Source of the DNA: Lebetimonas sp. JH292
GTDB taxonomy: Bacteria; Campylobacterota; Campylobacteria; Campylobacterales; Nautiliaceae
Assembly: GCF_000523275.1 (NCBI RefSeq)
Contig: NZ_ATHQ01000001.1
Location: 381,001-445,000, forward strand
Reading direction: 5' to 3'
DNA length: 64,000 nucleotides
Below the pieces are notes generated by a model, which did no database searches, was not told the origin of the DNA, and saw nothing but the letters and a program-made list of their open reading frames with translations. Positions within the stretch are counted from its first letter, which is position 1. Each line of letters opens with the position of its first letter. Positions 2,302 to 53,850 of the stretch are shown here, piece by piece. The translations under genes and the position numbers were made by a program.

Positions 2302-2372
2302 ATCAAGTTCCAAGTGAAAAGTGAGCTTTGCTCACCTGGCTATCAAAAGCGGCTATGGTGAAAAATTAAAAG
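2302..2372 (+). repeat. Composite dispersed repeat with hairpin, efflux operon copy
   Basis: Directly after the array come drifting 7-mers (CAAGTTC, CAAGTGA, AAAGTGA), then a perfect hairpin GTGAGC-TTT-GCTCAC at 2321-2335, then CTGGCTATCAAAAGCGGC, a degenerate version of the GGCCGCTT/AAGCGGCC palindrome seen elsewhere. The order (AAAGTGAGC, TTTGCTCA, CTGGC, palindrome, ATGGTGAAAA) matches the minus-strand copy inside the magIII gene near 22.65 kb. It lies between the adaptor and pump genes and could affect their relative expression. Confidence 0.8.
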
Positions 2373-8967: not shown

Positions 8968-9836
8968 ATGCCTGAAGAAGATTTATTAAAAATAGAAGAA
9001 ATAATAAGCAATGTTATCCATGATAACTGCTATCCTCTTATTTTGCCTGAAATTTCATTTGTAAATCATAATGGAAAATATGTTGTTAAAATTAAAATTT
9101 ACAAAGGTAATAACCCGCCTTATTGTTAGAAAGAGAAAAACAGGGCATTTCTTTTGATTCGCTTCCGGTATATTCAAAAACTATTGATGTTTCCCACAAA
9201 TGCATTTTTACTGCTTTCTAATGATGAAATAAGAAATGTACGTTTTCCCTACGCAAAAATAGAATGCGCAAGATTTAAAGGAACAATACCCGGAGATTTT
9301 ATAGACCAGAAGAGCATTAATGAGCCTATAAGTTTTCAGGCAGAAGAAGCATATAAATTCTGTTCTTAGACACATTTCTCAAGGCTCAACATATGAGGGA
9401 GTTTATAGAAAAGACAGATGGGAATATCCAGTTATTGCAATTCGTGAAGCAATAAGAAATGCAGTTATTCATCGTGATTATTCTTTAACAGGAAAAGATA
9501 TAAAAATTGCCATATTTGATGATAAGATTGAAATTACTAGTCCTTTAGTCTTTAAAAAACTTGGAATAATAGAGCAGTGGGGAAATGGATTAAGATTGAT
9601 TGCCAAAGAGTTAAAAAAATATCCTGAAATTAGGTTTGAGTAAAAGTAAACTACCGTCCAGAAACCCAAAAGAGTGTTTCAACAGAATCCGCGACCAATT
9701 ACGACATTACGAACGATTACGAACGATTACGAACGATTAACATTGTTTATCTTTTAGATAATTCGAAAAAAATCTTATTCAAAGGCAAGGGAAAGGTAGA
9801 AGCACTTATTATGTTTTAAAGAAGGATGAATTGTGA
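8968..9836 (+). pseudogene. AlbA/RecG-like ATP-binding protein remnant inside the hsd locus
   Basis: Successive frames give MPEEDLLKIEEIISN...YPLILPEISF (8968-9129), GISFDSLPVYSKTID, PTNAFLLLSNDEIRNVRFPYAK (to 9369), then HISQGSTYEGVYRKD...AIREAIRNAVIHRDYS (GHKL-like ATP site) to RFE at 9643, then YRPETQKSV and a C terminus RQGKGRSTYYVLKKDEL ending at 9836. This is the layout of the AlbA_2 'RecG-like/Schlafen-AlbA' family often found between hsdM and hsdS. At least four frame breaks and a deletion after EITSP are present. Known members are suspected regulators or defence accessories. This copy is dead. Confidence 0.75.
9711..9740 (+). repeat. 10-bp tandem repeat GAACGATTAC x3
   Basis: Three copies of GAACGATTAC (the last ends in AA) lie in the 3' part of the AlbA-like remnant, encoding NDYERLRTI-like residues. 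A 10-bp unit changes frame on each slippage event, so this is a possible source of one of the frame breaks. Confidence 0.85.
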
Positions 9837-9931
9837 AGGGTGAAGGATGAAGGATGAAGGATGAAGGATGAAGGATGAAGGATGAAGGATGAGGATGAAG
9901 GATGAAGGATGAAGGATGAAGGATGAAGGAT
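9837..9931 (+). repeat. Heptanucleotide array GGATGAA upstream of hsdS
   Basis: About thirteen units of GGATGAA, with one shortened unit (GATGAGGATGAAG near 9890), fill the gap between the AlbA-like remnant and hsdS. TGA occurs in every frame on the plus strand, while the reverse strand (TTCATCC) is fully open and yields a meaningless FILHPSS repeat peptide. This word is confined to the hsd island; the rest of the window uses GTGAGTA-type words. Confidence 0.95.
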
Positions 9932-9949: not shown

Positions 9950-10606
9950 ATGAGTGAAAAATTGCCTAATGGGTGGAAAAGGGTTAAGTTGGGAGAGGTT
10001 GCTGTATTTAATTACGGAAAATCTCTTCCTGAAAAAAATCGAATTAAAGGAAATATACCTGTTTACAGTTGCATAATGAAGCTTTAGTAAAATCAAAAGG
10101 AATTATTGTTGGTAGAAAAGGAACAATAGGGAAAGTTTATAAAGCAAAAGTTCCTTTTTATCCAATTGATACTTGTTATTATAGTATTATTTGCTCATTT
10201 ATTTGAAGTTAGATGAATTAAATGAAGACAGTGCTGTTCCTGGTCTAAACAGAAACACAGCTTATTCTCAGGAAATTCTTCTCCCACCTCTCCCCGAACA
10301 AAAAGCCATAGCCTCTGTGCTTTCATCTCTTGACGATAAAATTGACCTACTTAACCGCCAAAACCAAACACTTGAAAAAATGACCGAGACACTTTTTAGA
10401 AAATGGTTTATAGAAGACGCAAAAGAGGATTGGGAAATAGTTTCTTTACAAGTAAAAGAAAAATAAAACTTCGTACTAAAGCTAATAGCGGAGTTCAAGT
10501 CAATTTGACAATTCAATAAATCAGAAATATTGATATTAACCAAATCCGCACCCTTGAAAAATTGCGAGACATACTTTTACCAAAACTCATAAGCGGGGAA
10601 GTGAGG
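9950..10606 (+). pseudogene. hsdS: hsdS remnant (type I specificity subunit)
   Basis: The start MSEKLPNGWKRVKLGEVA is typical of HsdS. The frame breaks after IPVYSC, resumes as HNEALVKSKGIIVGRKGTIGKVYKA, and breaks again before the central conserved region LPPLPEQKAIASVLSSLDDKI...TLFRKWFIED (to 10466). A third frame ends with TLEKLRDILLPKLISGEV, the usual C-terminal repeat. The second target-recognition domain is missing, so only one half-specificity remains and it is frameshifted. It is flanked on both sides by GGATGAA arrays. Confidence 0.85.
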
Positions 10607-10679
10607 ATGAAGGATGAAGGATGAAGGATGAAGGATGAAGAATGGAAGGATGAAGGATGAAGGATGAAGAATGAAAGGG
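10603..10679 (+). repeat. Heptanucleotide array GGATGAA between hsdS and hsdR
   Basis: About eleven GGATGAA units, two of them changed to AGAATGG or GAATGAAA forms, start within the last codons of hsdS (GEVRMKDEG, stop) and end at the ATG region of the hsdR remnant. This is the second array of this word. No copy is seen outside the island. Confidence 0.95.
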
Positions 10680-21634: not shown

Positions 21635-22198
21635 TTAAATTATTTTTTCAAATTTTCTCAAATTTTTACGTCTGATTTTGACGCCCGGCAGATACTTTTC
21701 AACCAAAGTCCAAAAATTCCTGCCGTGATTTTTATGTTTAATATGGGCTAGTTCATGCACAACAACATATTCAATCAGCTCTATAGGAAGTTTTGCAAGA
21801 AAATAATTAAAACTGACGGAATTTTTATAACTGCAGCTTCCCCATCTTGTTTTATTGAATCTAAAAGATATTTTAGCAGGATGCAGATTCATTTTATTAG
21901 CATACTTATAAACAATCGGCAAGATAACTTCAGGCAGTTTATTTTTATAGATTTCTTTTTCGTCAATTCCGTTTTTTATATATTTTTTTCCAAAAAGATA
22001 ATAATAATTCACATTTTTTTGTTTTTCAATTATGTGGTCGGCATACTTTAAAATGAACTTTTTTACAAAATCATTTGACACAAATCTGTTTGCACTAACC
22101 TCCACATGAGAATCATAAATTCTTAAATAAATATGCTTTATAGGCTTTTTTATTATTTTATATTTTATTTCAACCCCGTTAAAAAAAAGTTTATCCAT
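21635..22198 (-). CDS. YgjP-like metallopeptidase (M48/DUF45)
   Basis: A 187-residue protein with the zinc-binding motif HELAHIKHKNHGRNFW near residues 143-158 and RWGSCSYKNSVSFNY upstream, as in the YgjP/DUF45 family of minigluzincin-like metallopeptidases. There is no signal sequence, so it is cytoplasmic. It overlaps the end of magIII by 8 bp. In this family members lie next to type I restriction or repair genes in various bacteria; the physiological substrate is not known. Confidence 0.87.
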   Translation of the reverse strand: MDKLFFNGVEIKYKIIKKPIKHIYLRIYDSHVEVSANRFVSNDFVKKFILKYADHIIEKQKNVNYYYLFGKKYIKNGIDEKEIYKNKLPEVILPIVYKYANKMNLHPAKISFRFNKTRWGSCSYKNSVSFNYFLAKLPIELIEYVVVHELAHIKHKNHGRNFWTLVEKYLPGVKIRRKNLRKFEKII

Positions 22199-22856
22199 TT
22201 TTCATAAACTCCACTATTTTACCATGAAACCTTGCATAACACAAATTCAAATCGTTTTCATAAATTTCAGCCAATTTACCCCAGTTTTCTTCCACTCCCC
22301 TCTCAAACCACTCTTTCATATCATCATAACTTTCAAACTCAAAGCCTTTTTTCTTAAGGAGTCTTTTTGTGTATGCATCCATAACCATAGTTTCTTTGAA
22401 ACAGGCATAGCATAATATACTGTCAGCCGTTTCGAATCCTATTCCTTTTTGGCTTAAAAGCCACTCACGGGTTACATTTTCTTTAAAATTTTCAAAATCA
22501 CCAAAATCTCTTAAAATATTTCTTGAAAGTGCTATCAGTCTTTTTGCTTTTTGATTGTAAAATCCGGCAGATTTAATAAGCTCAGCCAAATAAGAAGGCT
22601 CAAAACTTGCCACTTCTTCAATTCTCCATTCTCCATCACGGCCGCTTGAAAAGCGGCCAGATGAGCAAAGCTCACTTTTCATTTTTAACTGATTTAACGC
22701 TTTTTCAACATTCTCCCATTTAGTATTTTGCGTTAAAACAGCACCTACCACCACTTCAAAAGTACCGGCATCCGGCCACCAGTATTTTGGCTTATTTTTT
22801 AACAGCTCTTTTTTTCTAAGTTCTTCTAACAGTTCATATGAATTGCTAAATTCCAT
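22191..22856 (-). CDS. magIII: 3-methyladenine DNA glycosylase, MagIII type
   Basis: An HhH-GPD glycosylase of the Helicobacter MagIII type, shown by YWWPDAGTFEVVVGAVLTQNTKWENVEKAL, SAGFYNQKAKRLIALSRNIL, KGIGFETADSILCYAC, VMDAYTKRLL with the catalytic Asp, and the C-terminal YARFHGKIVEF. It lacks the endonuclease III iron-sulfur cysteines, as expected for MagIII. The start at 22856 (GGAGGAG before MEFSNSYELL) is better than the ATG at 22877, which lies in repeat DNA. Between ALNQLK and EEVASFEP, about 20 residues (KSELCSSGRFSSGRDGEW...) are encoded by an in-frame palindromic repeat copy. It removes alkylated purines. Confidence 0.88.
   Translation of the reverse strand: MEFSNSYELLEELRKKELLKNKPKYWWPDAGTFEVVVGAVLTQNTKWENVEKALNQLKMKSELCSSGRFSSGRDGEWRIEEVASFEPSYLAELIKSAGFYNQKAKRLIALSRNILRDFGDFENFKENVTREWLLSQKGIGFETADSILCYACFKETMVMDAYTKRLLKKKGFEFESYDDMKEWFERGVEENWGKLAEIYENDLNLCYARFHGKIVEFMKNG
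22618..22692 (-). repeat. Palindromic repeat inserted in frame inside magIII
   Basis: On the coding strand the segment reads AAAAGTGAGC-TTT-GCTC, then ATCTGGCCGCTT-TTC-AAGCGGCC, then GTGATGGAGAATGGAGAA. It contains an 8-bp stem (22640-22647 with 22651-22658) and a small GAGC/GCTC stem (22663-22673), and is flanked by 7-bp words. The same modules in the same order occur between the efflux genes at 2317-2365. The copy keeps the reading frame and has no stop in it, so it is translated. Confidence 0.85.
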
Positions 22857-22861
22857 CTCTC

Positions 22862-23112
22862 CTCCATTTTCCACCATGGCCGCTTTTCAAGCAGCCAGGT
22901 GAGCTTAATTCGCTTTGCTCATTTTCGCTCATTTTTCACTTTTCACTTTTCATCATGGCCGCTTTTCAAGCAGCCAGATGAGCTTAATTCGCTTTACTCA
23001 TTTGCGCTCATTTTTCACTTTTCACTTGAAACTTGGCTACTTGGAACTTGGCAACTTGTCAACTCCCAACTCACTACTCACAACTCACTACTCACAACTC
23101 ACTACTCACTAC
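22862..23112. repeat. Large composite repeat block (two 79-bp palindromic units plus heptad arrays)
   Basis: Two tandem units begin with CATGGCCGCTTTTCAAGCAG at 22875 and at 22954 (79 bp apart) and differ at only a few positions. Each continues through GTGAGCTTAATTCGCTTTGC and 7-mers of the TTTTCAC type. They are followed by 7-mers of the ACTTGGC/TACTTGG/AACTTGG type (23025-23065) and then by CTCACTA/CTCACAA units to 23112. The block separates magIII from the phosphoesterase gene and provides the last residues of that gene (VVSSEL). The plus-strand ORFs through it (LTTHYS-like peptides) are not considered genes. Confidence 0.9.
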
Positions 23113-23895
23113 TTTCGCTTCCTGTGTTACAATAAGTTCTCCATCATCAAAAGCTTTATATTTTTTGGCTGAAATCGATTTTTTAGCATCCGTATTAATA
23201 ACAACCGCCTGAAAAATTGTTTTGCATTTCTTAGGCACGTCAAAATTATGCTTAAGCCCTGTGAGAGAGTTCATAATAGGGGCGTTTTCTTTTATGCCTA
23301 TTACATTATCCCTGCATCCGCTAAGCCCTATATCCGTTAAATAGCAAGTCCCATCATTTATTTGTAAATCATCGGTTCCTATATGTGTATGGGTTCCGAT
23401 AATCGCTCCAACTTTTCCTTTTAGCAGATGAAAAAGAGTTCTTTTTTCAGCAGTAGCTTCTGCATGAAAATCTATAAAAATAAATTTTTCTTCTTTTAAA
23501 TTATCTACAAAATTTTTAATTTCAATAAAAGGATTTTTTCCATAAGGCATCGTAAAATTTCCCATAGCATTAATTACAATTATATTTTCATCTTCATAAT
23601 ACCATCTGCCCGGAGCTTCAAAATAATTAAGAGGTCTTAGTATCTTACCTTCGCTAAGCAGCTGCAAAGCTTCTTTTTTTTTATCAAAAGTATGGTTTCC
23701 GCCTGTAAAAATATCAATTCCGGCATTTTTCATCTCTTCATATGTTTTAACTGTAATTCCAAATCCATGGGTAATATTTTCATAATTTCCTATTACATAG
23801 TCAATATTTTCTGTTTCTTTTATAAGCGGCAGATATTTTTTTACCGTTTTTCTGCCCGGCTTTCCCACAATATCACCTATAAAAAGTATATTCAT
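23092..23895 (-). CDS. YmdB-type metallophosphoesterase
   Basis: A 267-residue calcineurin-like phosphoesterase of the YmdB family (cyclic-nucleotide phosphodiesterase family, TIGR00282 type). Metal ligands are visible in MNILFIGDIVGKPGR, GNYENITHGFGIT, GGNHTFDKK, IDFHAEATAEK and GTHTHIGTDD, with a conserved YLTDIGLSGCRDNVIG loop. In Firmicutes YmdB hydrolyses 2',3'- or 3',5'-cAMP and influences biofilm choices; in Campylobacterota the role is not established. The final residues VVSSEL and the TGA come from a CTCACTA-type repeat array. The start is divergent from the next gene with only about 25 bp between. Confidence 0.87.
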   Translation of the reverse strand: MNILFIGDIVGKPGRKTVKKYLPLIKETENIDYVIGNYENITHGFGITVKTYEEMKNAGIDIFTGGNHTFDKKKEALQLLSEGKILRPLNYFEAPGRWYYEDENIIVINAMGNFTMPYGKNPFIEIKNFVDNLKEEKFIFIDFHAEATAEKRTLFHLLKGKVGAIIGTHTHIGTDDLQINDGTCYLTDIGLSGCRDNVIGIKENAPIMNSLTGLKHNFDVPKKCKTIFQAVVINTDAKKSISAKKYKAFDDGELIVTQEAKVVSSEL

Positions 23896-25918: not shown

Positions 25919-26008
25919 ATAGTGAGTAGTGAGTTGTGAGCCTGCCCGGCCGTTTGAAAAACGGCGGGGTGGTTAGTGGTGAGTAGTAAAGTTGCCAAGT
26001 AAACTTTT
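25919..26008 (+). repeat. Composite repeat after hisS (heptads plus CCGTTT hairpin)
   Basis: Units AGTGAGT, AGTGAGT, TGTGAG lead into a GC-rich hairpin CCGTTT-GAA-AAACGG (25950-25964, extended by flanking CCCGG and CGGGG), then TGGTTAGTGGTGAGTAGTAA and AAAGTTGCCAAGTAAACTTT. The palindrome is a sequence variant of the GGCCGCTT/AAGCGGCC type, with both arms changed together. The hairpin could act as a terminator or mRNA end for hisS. Confidence 0.85.
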
Positions 26009-53727: not shown

Positions 53728-53850
53728 TTCCTTTTTTAATTTTACATTTTTCACCATGGCCGCTTTTCAAGCAGCCCATTATCCATTTTCCACCATGGCC
53801 GTTTTTCAAACGGCCGGGTGAGCTTAATTCGCTTTGCTCATTTTCGCTCA
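53728..53850. repeat. Composite repeat block with two GGCCG palindromes before the DUF945-like gene
   Basis: T-rich 7-mers (TTTTTAA, TTTTACA, TTTTTCA) are followed by CATGGCCGCTTTTCAAGCAG at 53755 (a copy truncated after CAGCCCATTATCC), then CATGGCCGTTTTTCAAACGG at 53793 with the remainder of the 79-bp unit (GTGAGCTTAATTCGCTTTGC and following bases). In the second palindrome the arms are GGCCGTTT and AAACGGCC: changed on both sides relative to GGCCGCTT, which keeps the hairpin. The block separates mtnN and the ydgA-like gene. Confidence 0.9.

Follow-up and report, generated by a model that had tools for sequence, protein, structure and literature searches.

The closest described counterparts of the element reported here are the Rickettsia palindromic elements (RPEs), the study behind which is reportedly that of Ogata et al. 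(2000), and which include shorter families as well. The passages devoted to RPEs in PMC2229807 and PMC10969869 describe them as dispersed palindromes of Rickettsia that lie between genes and also, with the frame kept, within genes unrelated to one another, with lengths of 105-146 bp (PMC2229807). The element that we describe here, found in a stretch of 64,000 nucleotides (the window, C1:381001-445000) of a 1.64-Mb Lebetimonas genome (G000) and elsewhere in that genome, is likewise a many-copy palindrome that lies between genes as well as in frame inside unrelated conserved genes, with orthologues that lack the inserted segment, a conserved encoded peptide and an insert that is expected in tolerated loops. 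It differs in architecture (39 or 58 nt with a 13-pair stem versus long terminal inverted repeats and a length of some 105-146 bp), in being inserted in pre-existing heptads and in its host, since RPEs are specific to Rickettsia (Rickettsiales) and the present element belongs to the Campylobacterota, with Nautiliaceae-type genomes as its kin. The comparison with RPEs made in the initial annotation holds in the sense of 'works like', but extends neither to sequence, which is unrelated, nor to length.

Intragenic GTAG/CGTC REPs are short hairpins within ORFs in several species, many of them in DNA-repair genes, and one REP-bearing organism, Sulfurovum, belongs to the same phylum as Lebetimonas (PMC3733652). 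Like them, the present element is a short hairpin of 20-40 bp that recurs many times, but 26 aligned copies show no GTAG/CGTC tetranucleotide at the hairpin foot, the RAYT-like gene is not flanked by it, and it is co-oriented with genes and heptads. The TAACTGA heptameric direct repeats of Beggiatoaceae, cyanobacteria and Bacteroidetes form spacer arrays that face the downstream start codon (PMC4679880). Seven-base arrays pointed at a downstream start codon are found here too; the forward TAACTGA repeats have stops in every frame, whereas the AAAATGG heptads of the present family are stop-free in all six and occur inside genes as well. In Nostoc, Elhai et al. (2008) reportedly described very small dispersed repeats within heptamer arrays, likewise tiny elements inserted inside heptameric repeats but with other sequences and another host; in-frame insertion into enzymes is not known to be part of that description. 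The element is thus akin in outcome to RPEs and intragenic REPs and a member of neither.

The palindromic insert in magIII

The host gene encodes a 3-methyladenine DNA glycosylase, as its product exceeds the cut-off of the family profile (NCBIfam PRK13913.1, 324.8 bits in the profile search, cut-off 192), matches H. pylori MagIII (1pu6, E=9e-69) and, with the insert in place, retains all invariant columns of the family and its predicted fold. We take the ATG at 22854-22856 (MEFSNS) as the probable true start, because the earlier codons of the listed ORF fall within the upstream repeat copy. The features discussed are collected in the table.

Features of the repeat system (positions are those of the window unless preceded by a contig or locus label)
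Feature	Position	Strand	Remarks
Intergenic copy, shortened stem variant	2317..2365	+	
magIII, 3-methyladenine DNA glycosylase	22191..22877	-	228-aa ORF as listed; NCBIfam and 1pu6 matches
Heptad-like host sequence 3' of the insert	22618..22633	-	GAGAATGGAGAATTGA; resembles insert-free orthologues
Inserted 39-nt palindromic unit in magIII	22634..22672	-	internal, sense, 39-nt class; from orthologue comparison, DNA alignment and unit length
Apical palindrome in magIII, 8-bp perfect stem and 3-nt loop	22640..22658	-	inverted relative to other copies
GTG trinucleotide preceding the unit	22673..22675	-	unit's own end is ATG (22634-22636)
Intergenic copy, long class	22872..22901	-	immediately upstream of magIII, same direction
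Composite array, ymdB-like gene to magIII	22903..23113	-	heptads, then hairpins
Second intergenic copy, long class	22951..22980	-	tandem with the 22872..22901 copy, 79-bp period
Family B hairpin	25948..25966	+	GCCCGGCCGTTTGAAAAACGGCGGGG; ~33 bp past a gene end
Intergenic copy	53791..53820	-	second, 5'-truncated copy follows at ~53752-53783
Copy in bioA	C1:61166		internal, sense, 39-nt class
Copy in asparagine synthase gene	C1:241913		internal, sense, 39-nt class
Copy in ftsK	C1:358434		variable linker; internal, sense, 58-nt class
Copy in molybdopterin oxidoreductase gene	C4:34354		internal, sense, 39-nt class
mqnD/PemK-like fused ORF	L240:9056-10366 (G000:C1:889542)		hairpin in frame as NLPGRLKSGGVVSSENE
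Y1 (RAYT-like) transposase gene, ~250 aa	L095:432-1184 (G000:C1:926967)		

The initial annotation had assigned positions 22618-22692 to a repeat copy, which is the correct place, but the insert proper covers only the 39-nt unit (coding strand AGCTTTGCTCATCTGGCCGCTTTTCAAGCGGCCGTGATG) and the remainder is heptad-like flank. The unit adds 13 residues (within ...KMKSELCSSGRFSSGRDGEW..., between KMKS and GEW), and these are missing in 29 of 29 aligned orthologues from the family and order, the same-genus one included. The extra residues that had been proposed are therefore real, and the same residues in distant orthologues, which had been named as the sign of an ancestral segment, were found in none. 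The frame downstream is intact and the unit is free of stops, again as first proposed, and it occupies the sole open sense frame; at the level of sequence comparison, both the insertion and the keeping of the frame are shown.

The 8-bp perfect stem (GGCCGCTT-GAA-AAGCGGCC) lies exactly where the initial annotation had put it. The apical stem-loop is flipped with respect to the other copies (coding strand CTTTTCAAG versus CTTGAAAAG), a detail that the initial annotation had missed, plausibly by mutation of a near-perfect palindrome. The pair of RTG trinucleotides at the borders of the unit may represent a duplicated target or, alternatively, heptad sequence that is shared.

In the AlphaFold model of MagIII (mean pLDDT 89.6) the low-confidence residues are the N-terminus and residues 73-82; the latter, in the insert region, fall below 50 and lie in the loop after helix 54-71. 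The fold is otherwise intact and matches H. pylori MagIII (1pu7) with a TM-score of 0.87, and the insert site is a loop of variable length across the wider family. The surface loop that had been suggested for modelling is in line with this prediction, and the insert fits a tolerated surface loop of a presumably working enzyme.

Copies of the element and their surroundings

Searches and sampled stretches of the genome, from which the lists of copies were drawn, gave 22 copies of a 30-nt pattern of the element (consensus CAYCTGGCYGCTTGAAAAGCGGCCAYGRTG) at up to three mismatches, 14 oriented one way and 8 the other, and none of the reversed pattern used as control. Within the window a 19-nt core pattern had seven matches at up to three mismatches (chance mean 0.01). 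No copy of the element was found in 40 relatives, among them a genome of the same genus, and when the whole collection was scanned for the hairpin core, unrelated bacteria gave 58 scattered single matches, which look like chance, and viral contigs gave 3. At the magIII locus Rfam gave no family, with one sub-threshold chance match.

Two size classes dominate, 39 and 58 nt, each bounded by RTG trinucleotides and set, as a rule, between period-7 arrays. The length of the 39-nt class is divisible by three, and its sense strand contains a single stop-free frame. The element folds into a hairpin of 13 pairs with a single bulge, and 95.3% of the cells in the aligned copies are paired. Compensatory changes are present at T7-A32 (C-G in 8 copies) and at C15-G23 (T-A in 7), and cells with a double change number 16 versus a shuffle mean of 6.5 (reached in 0/500 shuffles), the values being much lower when the partner is slid.

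Most intergenic copies are co-directional with the gene downstream. Between the ymdB-like gene and magIII the minus strand reads GTGAGTA/GTGAGTT, CCAAGTT and GTGAAAA heptads and then hairpins. The order of modules along transcription tends to be fixed in spacers (for instance at 22868-23113): stop codon, GTGAGTA heptads (with the B hairpin, if present), CCAAGTT, GTGAAAA heptads, A hairpin and start codon. The intergenic copy at 2317-2365, to which the magIII insert had first been compared, does agree with it in the modules and in their order, but forms a shortened variant of the hairpin (TGGCTATCAAAAGCGGCTA). The window also holds long arrays of other heptads (GAAGGAT in about 16 copies and AGGATGA in about 10, at 9821-9931 and 10604-10678).

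A sister family, B, is formed by a hairpin (GCCCGGCCGCTTGMAAAGCGGCGGGG) that sits within GTGAGTA heptads, commonly some 20-50 bp after stop codons and in the same direction as the gene. In one case a family B hairpin links mqnD, a gene of menaquinone biosynthesis, to a PemK-like gene, so that both form a single ORF of 437 aa; the two are separate adjacent ORFs in 5/5 relatives checked.

We found five copies of the element internal to genes, all on the sense strand and all in the same frame, and in each case the alignments contain orthologues without the insert. The peptide of the open sense frame is alike at each copy (ELCSSGxLKSGHDG). About seven further genes have a copy near the 5' end (those for a 158-aa protein, a glycosyltransferase and an ABC protein, folB, lspA, a dprA-like gene and one that we take, by eye, to be thiS-like), in every case on the sense strand and in the single open sense frame. 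About half of the in-ORF cases are N-terminal, and some of these copies may lie upstream of the true start. Of the six frames of the 39-nt unit in a heptad context, three are open (one sense, two antisense), and only the sense frame is used; if any open frame were usable, the chance of five in five in the sense direction would be (1/3)^5, about 0.004. Frame alone is inadequate to explain this bias, because the spacer copies share the orientation bias. Judging from the sequence, the insert would be translated into peptide.

Landing sites in relatives

At most of the corresponding empty sites, relatives have repeats of period 7 (AAAATGG, with KWKMENG as the encoded peptide), which in many instances are in frame already. 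Examples are ENGEWKIEN, VKWTMEN and KNEKCKMEN in asparagine synthase, KCKMENE in the molybdopterin oxidoreductase and WKMENGEWRIE in MagIII. Scored against random coding windows of the relative G001, 9 of 10 site/genome cases had P <= 0.006 on both measures. At the magIII site the signal of G001 itself is weak (P 0.04-0.17) and that of other genera strong, and the ftsK orthologue of G001 had no clear heptad. Because orthologues at most sites carry heptad DNA, the palindrome arrived after the heptads, an order of events that these sequence comparisons show, and the magIII site was probably a period-7 repeat before the palindrome came.

Arrays of AAAATGG have no stop in any of the six frames; those of GTGAAAA and GTGAGTA are not free of stops on the sense strand, and this explains which type dominates inside genes. 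AAAATGG arrays occur in 6/7 Nautiliaceae searched and, as a single match, in 1/93 other genomes of the order, and are thus essentially confined to Nautiliaceae; in both species sampled, further heptad arrays lie inside ORFs. One loop of BioA shows a growth series: G006, G002 and G008 lack extra residues, G005 has about 10, G001 about 25 and the present genome about 54; the predicted structure of BioA (mean pLDDT 43.6, shallow alignment) was set aside.

Two other loops deserve mention. In a protein to which we gave the name ThiE-like by eye, different species have different repeat peptides at one loop (relatives L289, L290, L292 and L293), and several relatives have heptads of both directions, forward and reverse, in frame, which together give a hairpin of up to -28.6 kcal/mol; the gene in the present genome (L237:4875-5534) has CCAAGTT heptads at that loop. 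These inverted heptads resemble the translated hairpins of Nematomorpha mitochondria, where coding palindromes lie within genes (PMC6649704), but those hairpins, long perfect inverted repeats, are formed by conserved sequence and not by a dispersed insertion family. At the molybdopterin oxidoreductase site, G005 and G006, which belong to different genera, share a near-identical palindrome unrelated to the element (12-bp stem, TQKSNRFLSGG), and the genus mates of both have heptads there. This palindrome (CACTCAAAAATC...GATTTTTGAGTG) is not a dispersed element but a single-locus sequence, so that its sharing reflects parallel gain or transfer.

Alternative explanations and proposed route of spread

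Very probably, the magIII segment is a non-autonomous palindromic repeat that inserted in frame into a translated gene at a time that is recent for the genus, that spread after the heptads and that is borne as a tolerated loop. The variable length of the MagIII loop in the wider family could have suggested an ancestral or ordinary loop that resembles the repeat by chance, but the segment is in 0/29 orthologues, is highly identical to copies elsewhere and recurs in unrelated genes; the orthologue alignments rule this out and leave it practically no probability. Hairpins within genes might also be skipped by the ribosome, as in the bypassed palindromic elements of Magnusiomyces mitochondrial genes that are mentioned in a passage of PMC6649704. 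We consider this very improbable here, as skipped inserts would be free to break the frame or to hold stops, and the five internal copies are 5/5 in the only open sense frame and keep the frame downstream of them intact.

Two further explanations carry more weight, although we regard each as unlikely. One is that a Y1/RAYT transposase that prefers RTG in heptads moves the element, as a MITE or REP, instead of its being copied by homology. This would agree with exact insertions of 39 nt at several sites, bordered on both sides by RTG, which may be a 3-bp duplication, as expected of a MITE, or heptad sequence, and with the Y1 transposase of about 250 aa encoded in nearly every Nautiliaceae genome searched, which resembles RAYT yet stays under the NCBIfam cut-off (55.6 versus 80 bits). 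The Y1 gene is, however, present in relatives without the element and unflanked by an A or B hairpin (its flank has GTGAGTA heptads alone, and the nearest hairpin is about 1.5 kb past its end, beyond other genes), the element lacks the GTAG/CGTC tag and it is nearly always co-oriented with genes; the conserved gene is possibly domesticated. The other explanation sees a functional RNA or translation module, a hairpin with RBS-like heptads between co-directional genes, of which the gene-internal copies are by-products. The shared direction of most intergenic copies and the following gene, the place of the B hairpin shortly past stop codons and the heptad repeats known before start codons elsewhere (PMC4679880) all point this way, but the element is species-specific and missing in the orthologous spacers checked in relatives. 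This module and the insertion of a non-autonomous repeat are mutually compatible.

For the latter, we propose that heptad arrays would first have spread into tolerant loops and gene junctions, and that RTG trinucleotides in other heptads would then have received copies of a heptad-flanked palindrome. Heptad homology may have guided this copying, through ectopic recombination or gene conversion, or a putative enzyme with an RTG target may have carried it out. Homology-guided exchange between dispersed heptads is favoured over a dedicated transposase because heptads form both the borders of the palindrome and its landing sites; strand-switching at the hairpin may assist it. The direction of the heptads would set the orientation of the palindrome, and purifying selection would leave in genes mostly 39-nt copies with the frame open, the insert being translated as a disordered surface loop that is tolerated and for which we claim no useful function. 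More tentatively, and with somewhat less than even confidence, we envisage two layers of coding repeats in Nautiliaceae, in which stop-free heptads, kept in frame, colonise genes as general landing pads and frame-compatible 39-nt palindromes are copied in by homology-guided exchange, so that loops may grow modularly and neighbouring genes may become fused.

In the literature searched, which included the Nautilia and Caminibacter genome papers and fell short of most subscription papers, the repeats of Nautiliaceae are undescribed, and the RepRanger REP counts for a Caminibacter are generic. Rickettsia is the best-known source of mobile palindromes that write new peptide into functional enzymes. 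The outcome is not exclusive to that genus, because intragenic REPs have been reported in several species (PMC3733652), which qualifies the comparison with Rickettsia drawn in the initial annotation. The in-frame palindromic insertion that the annotation proposed is real and recurs in unrelated genes. The same outcome in a vent lineage unrelated to Rickettsia indicates that the phenomenon is not bound to intracellular life, and since the pre-insertion state survives in close relatives, the order of events, the rule for landing and what the insert costs the protein are directly testable.
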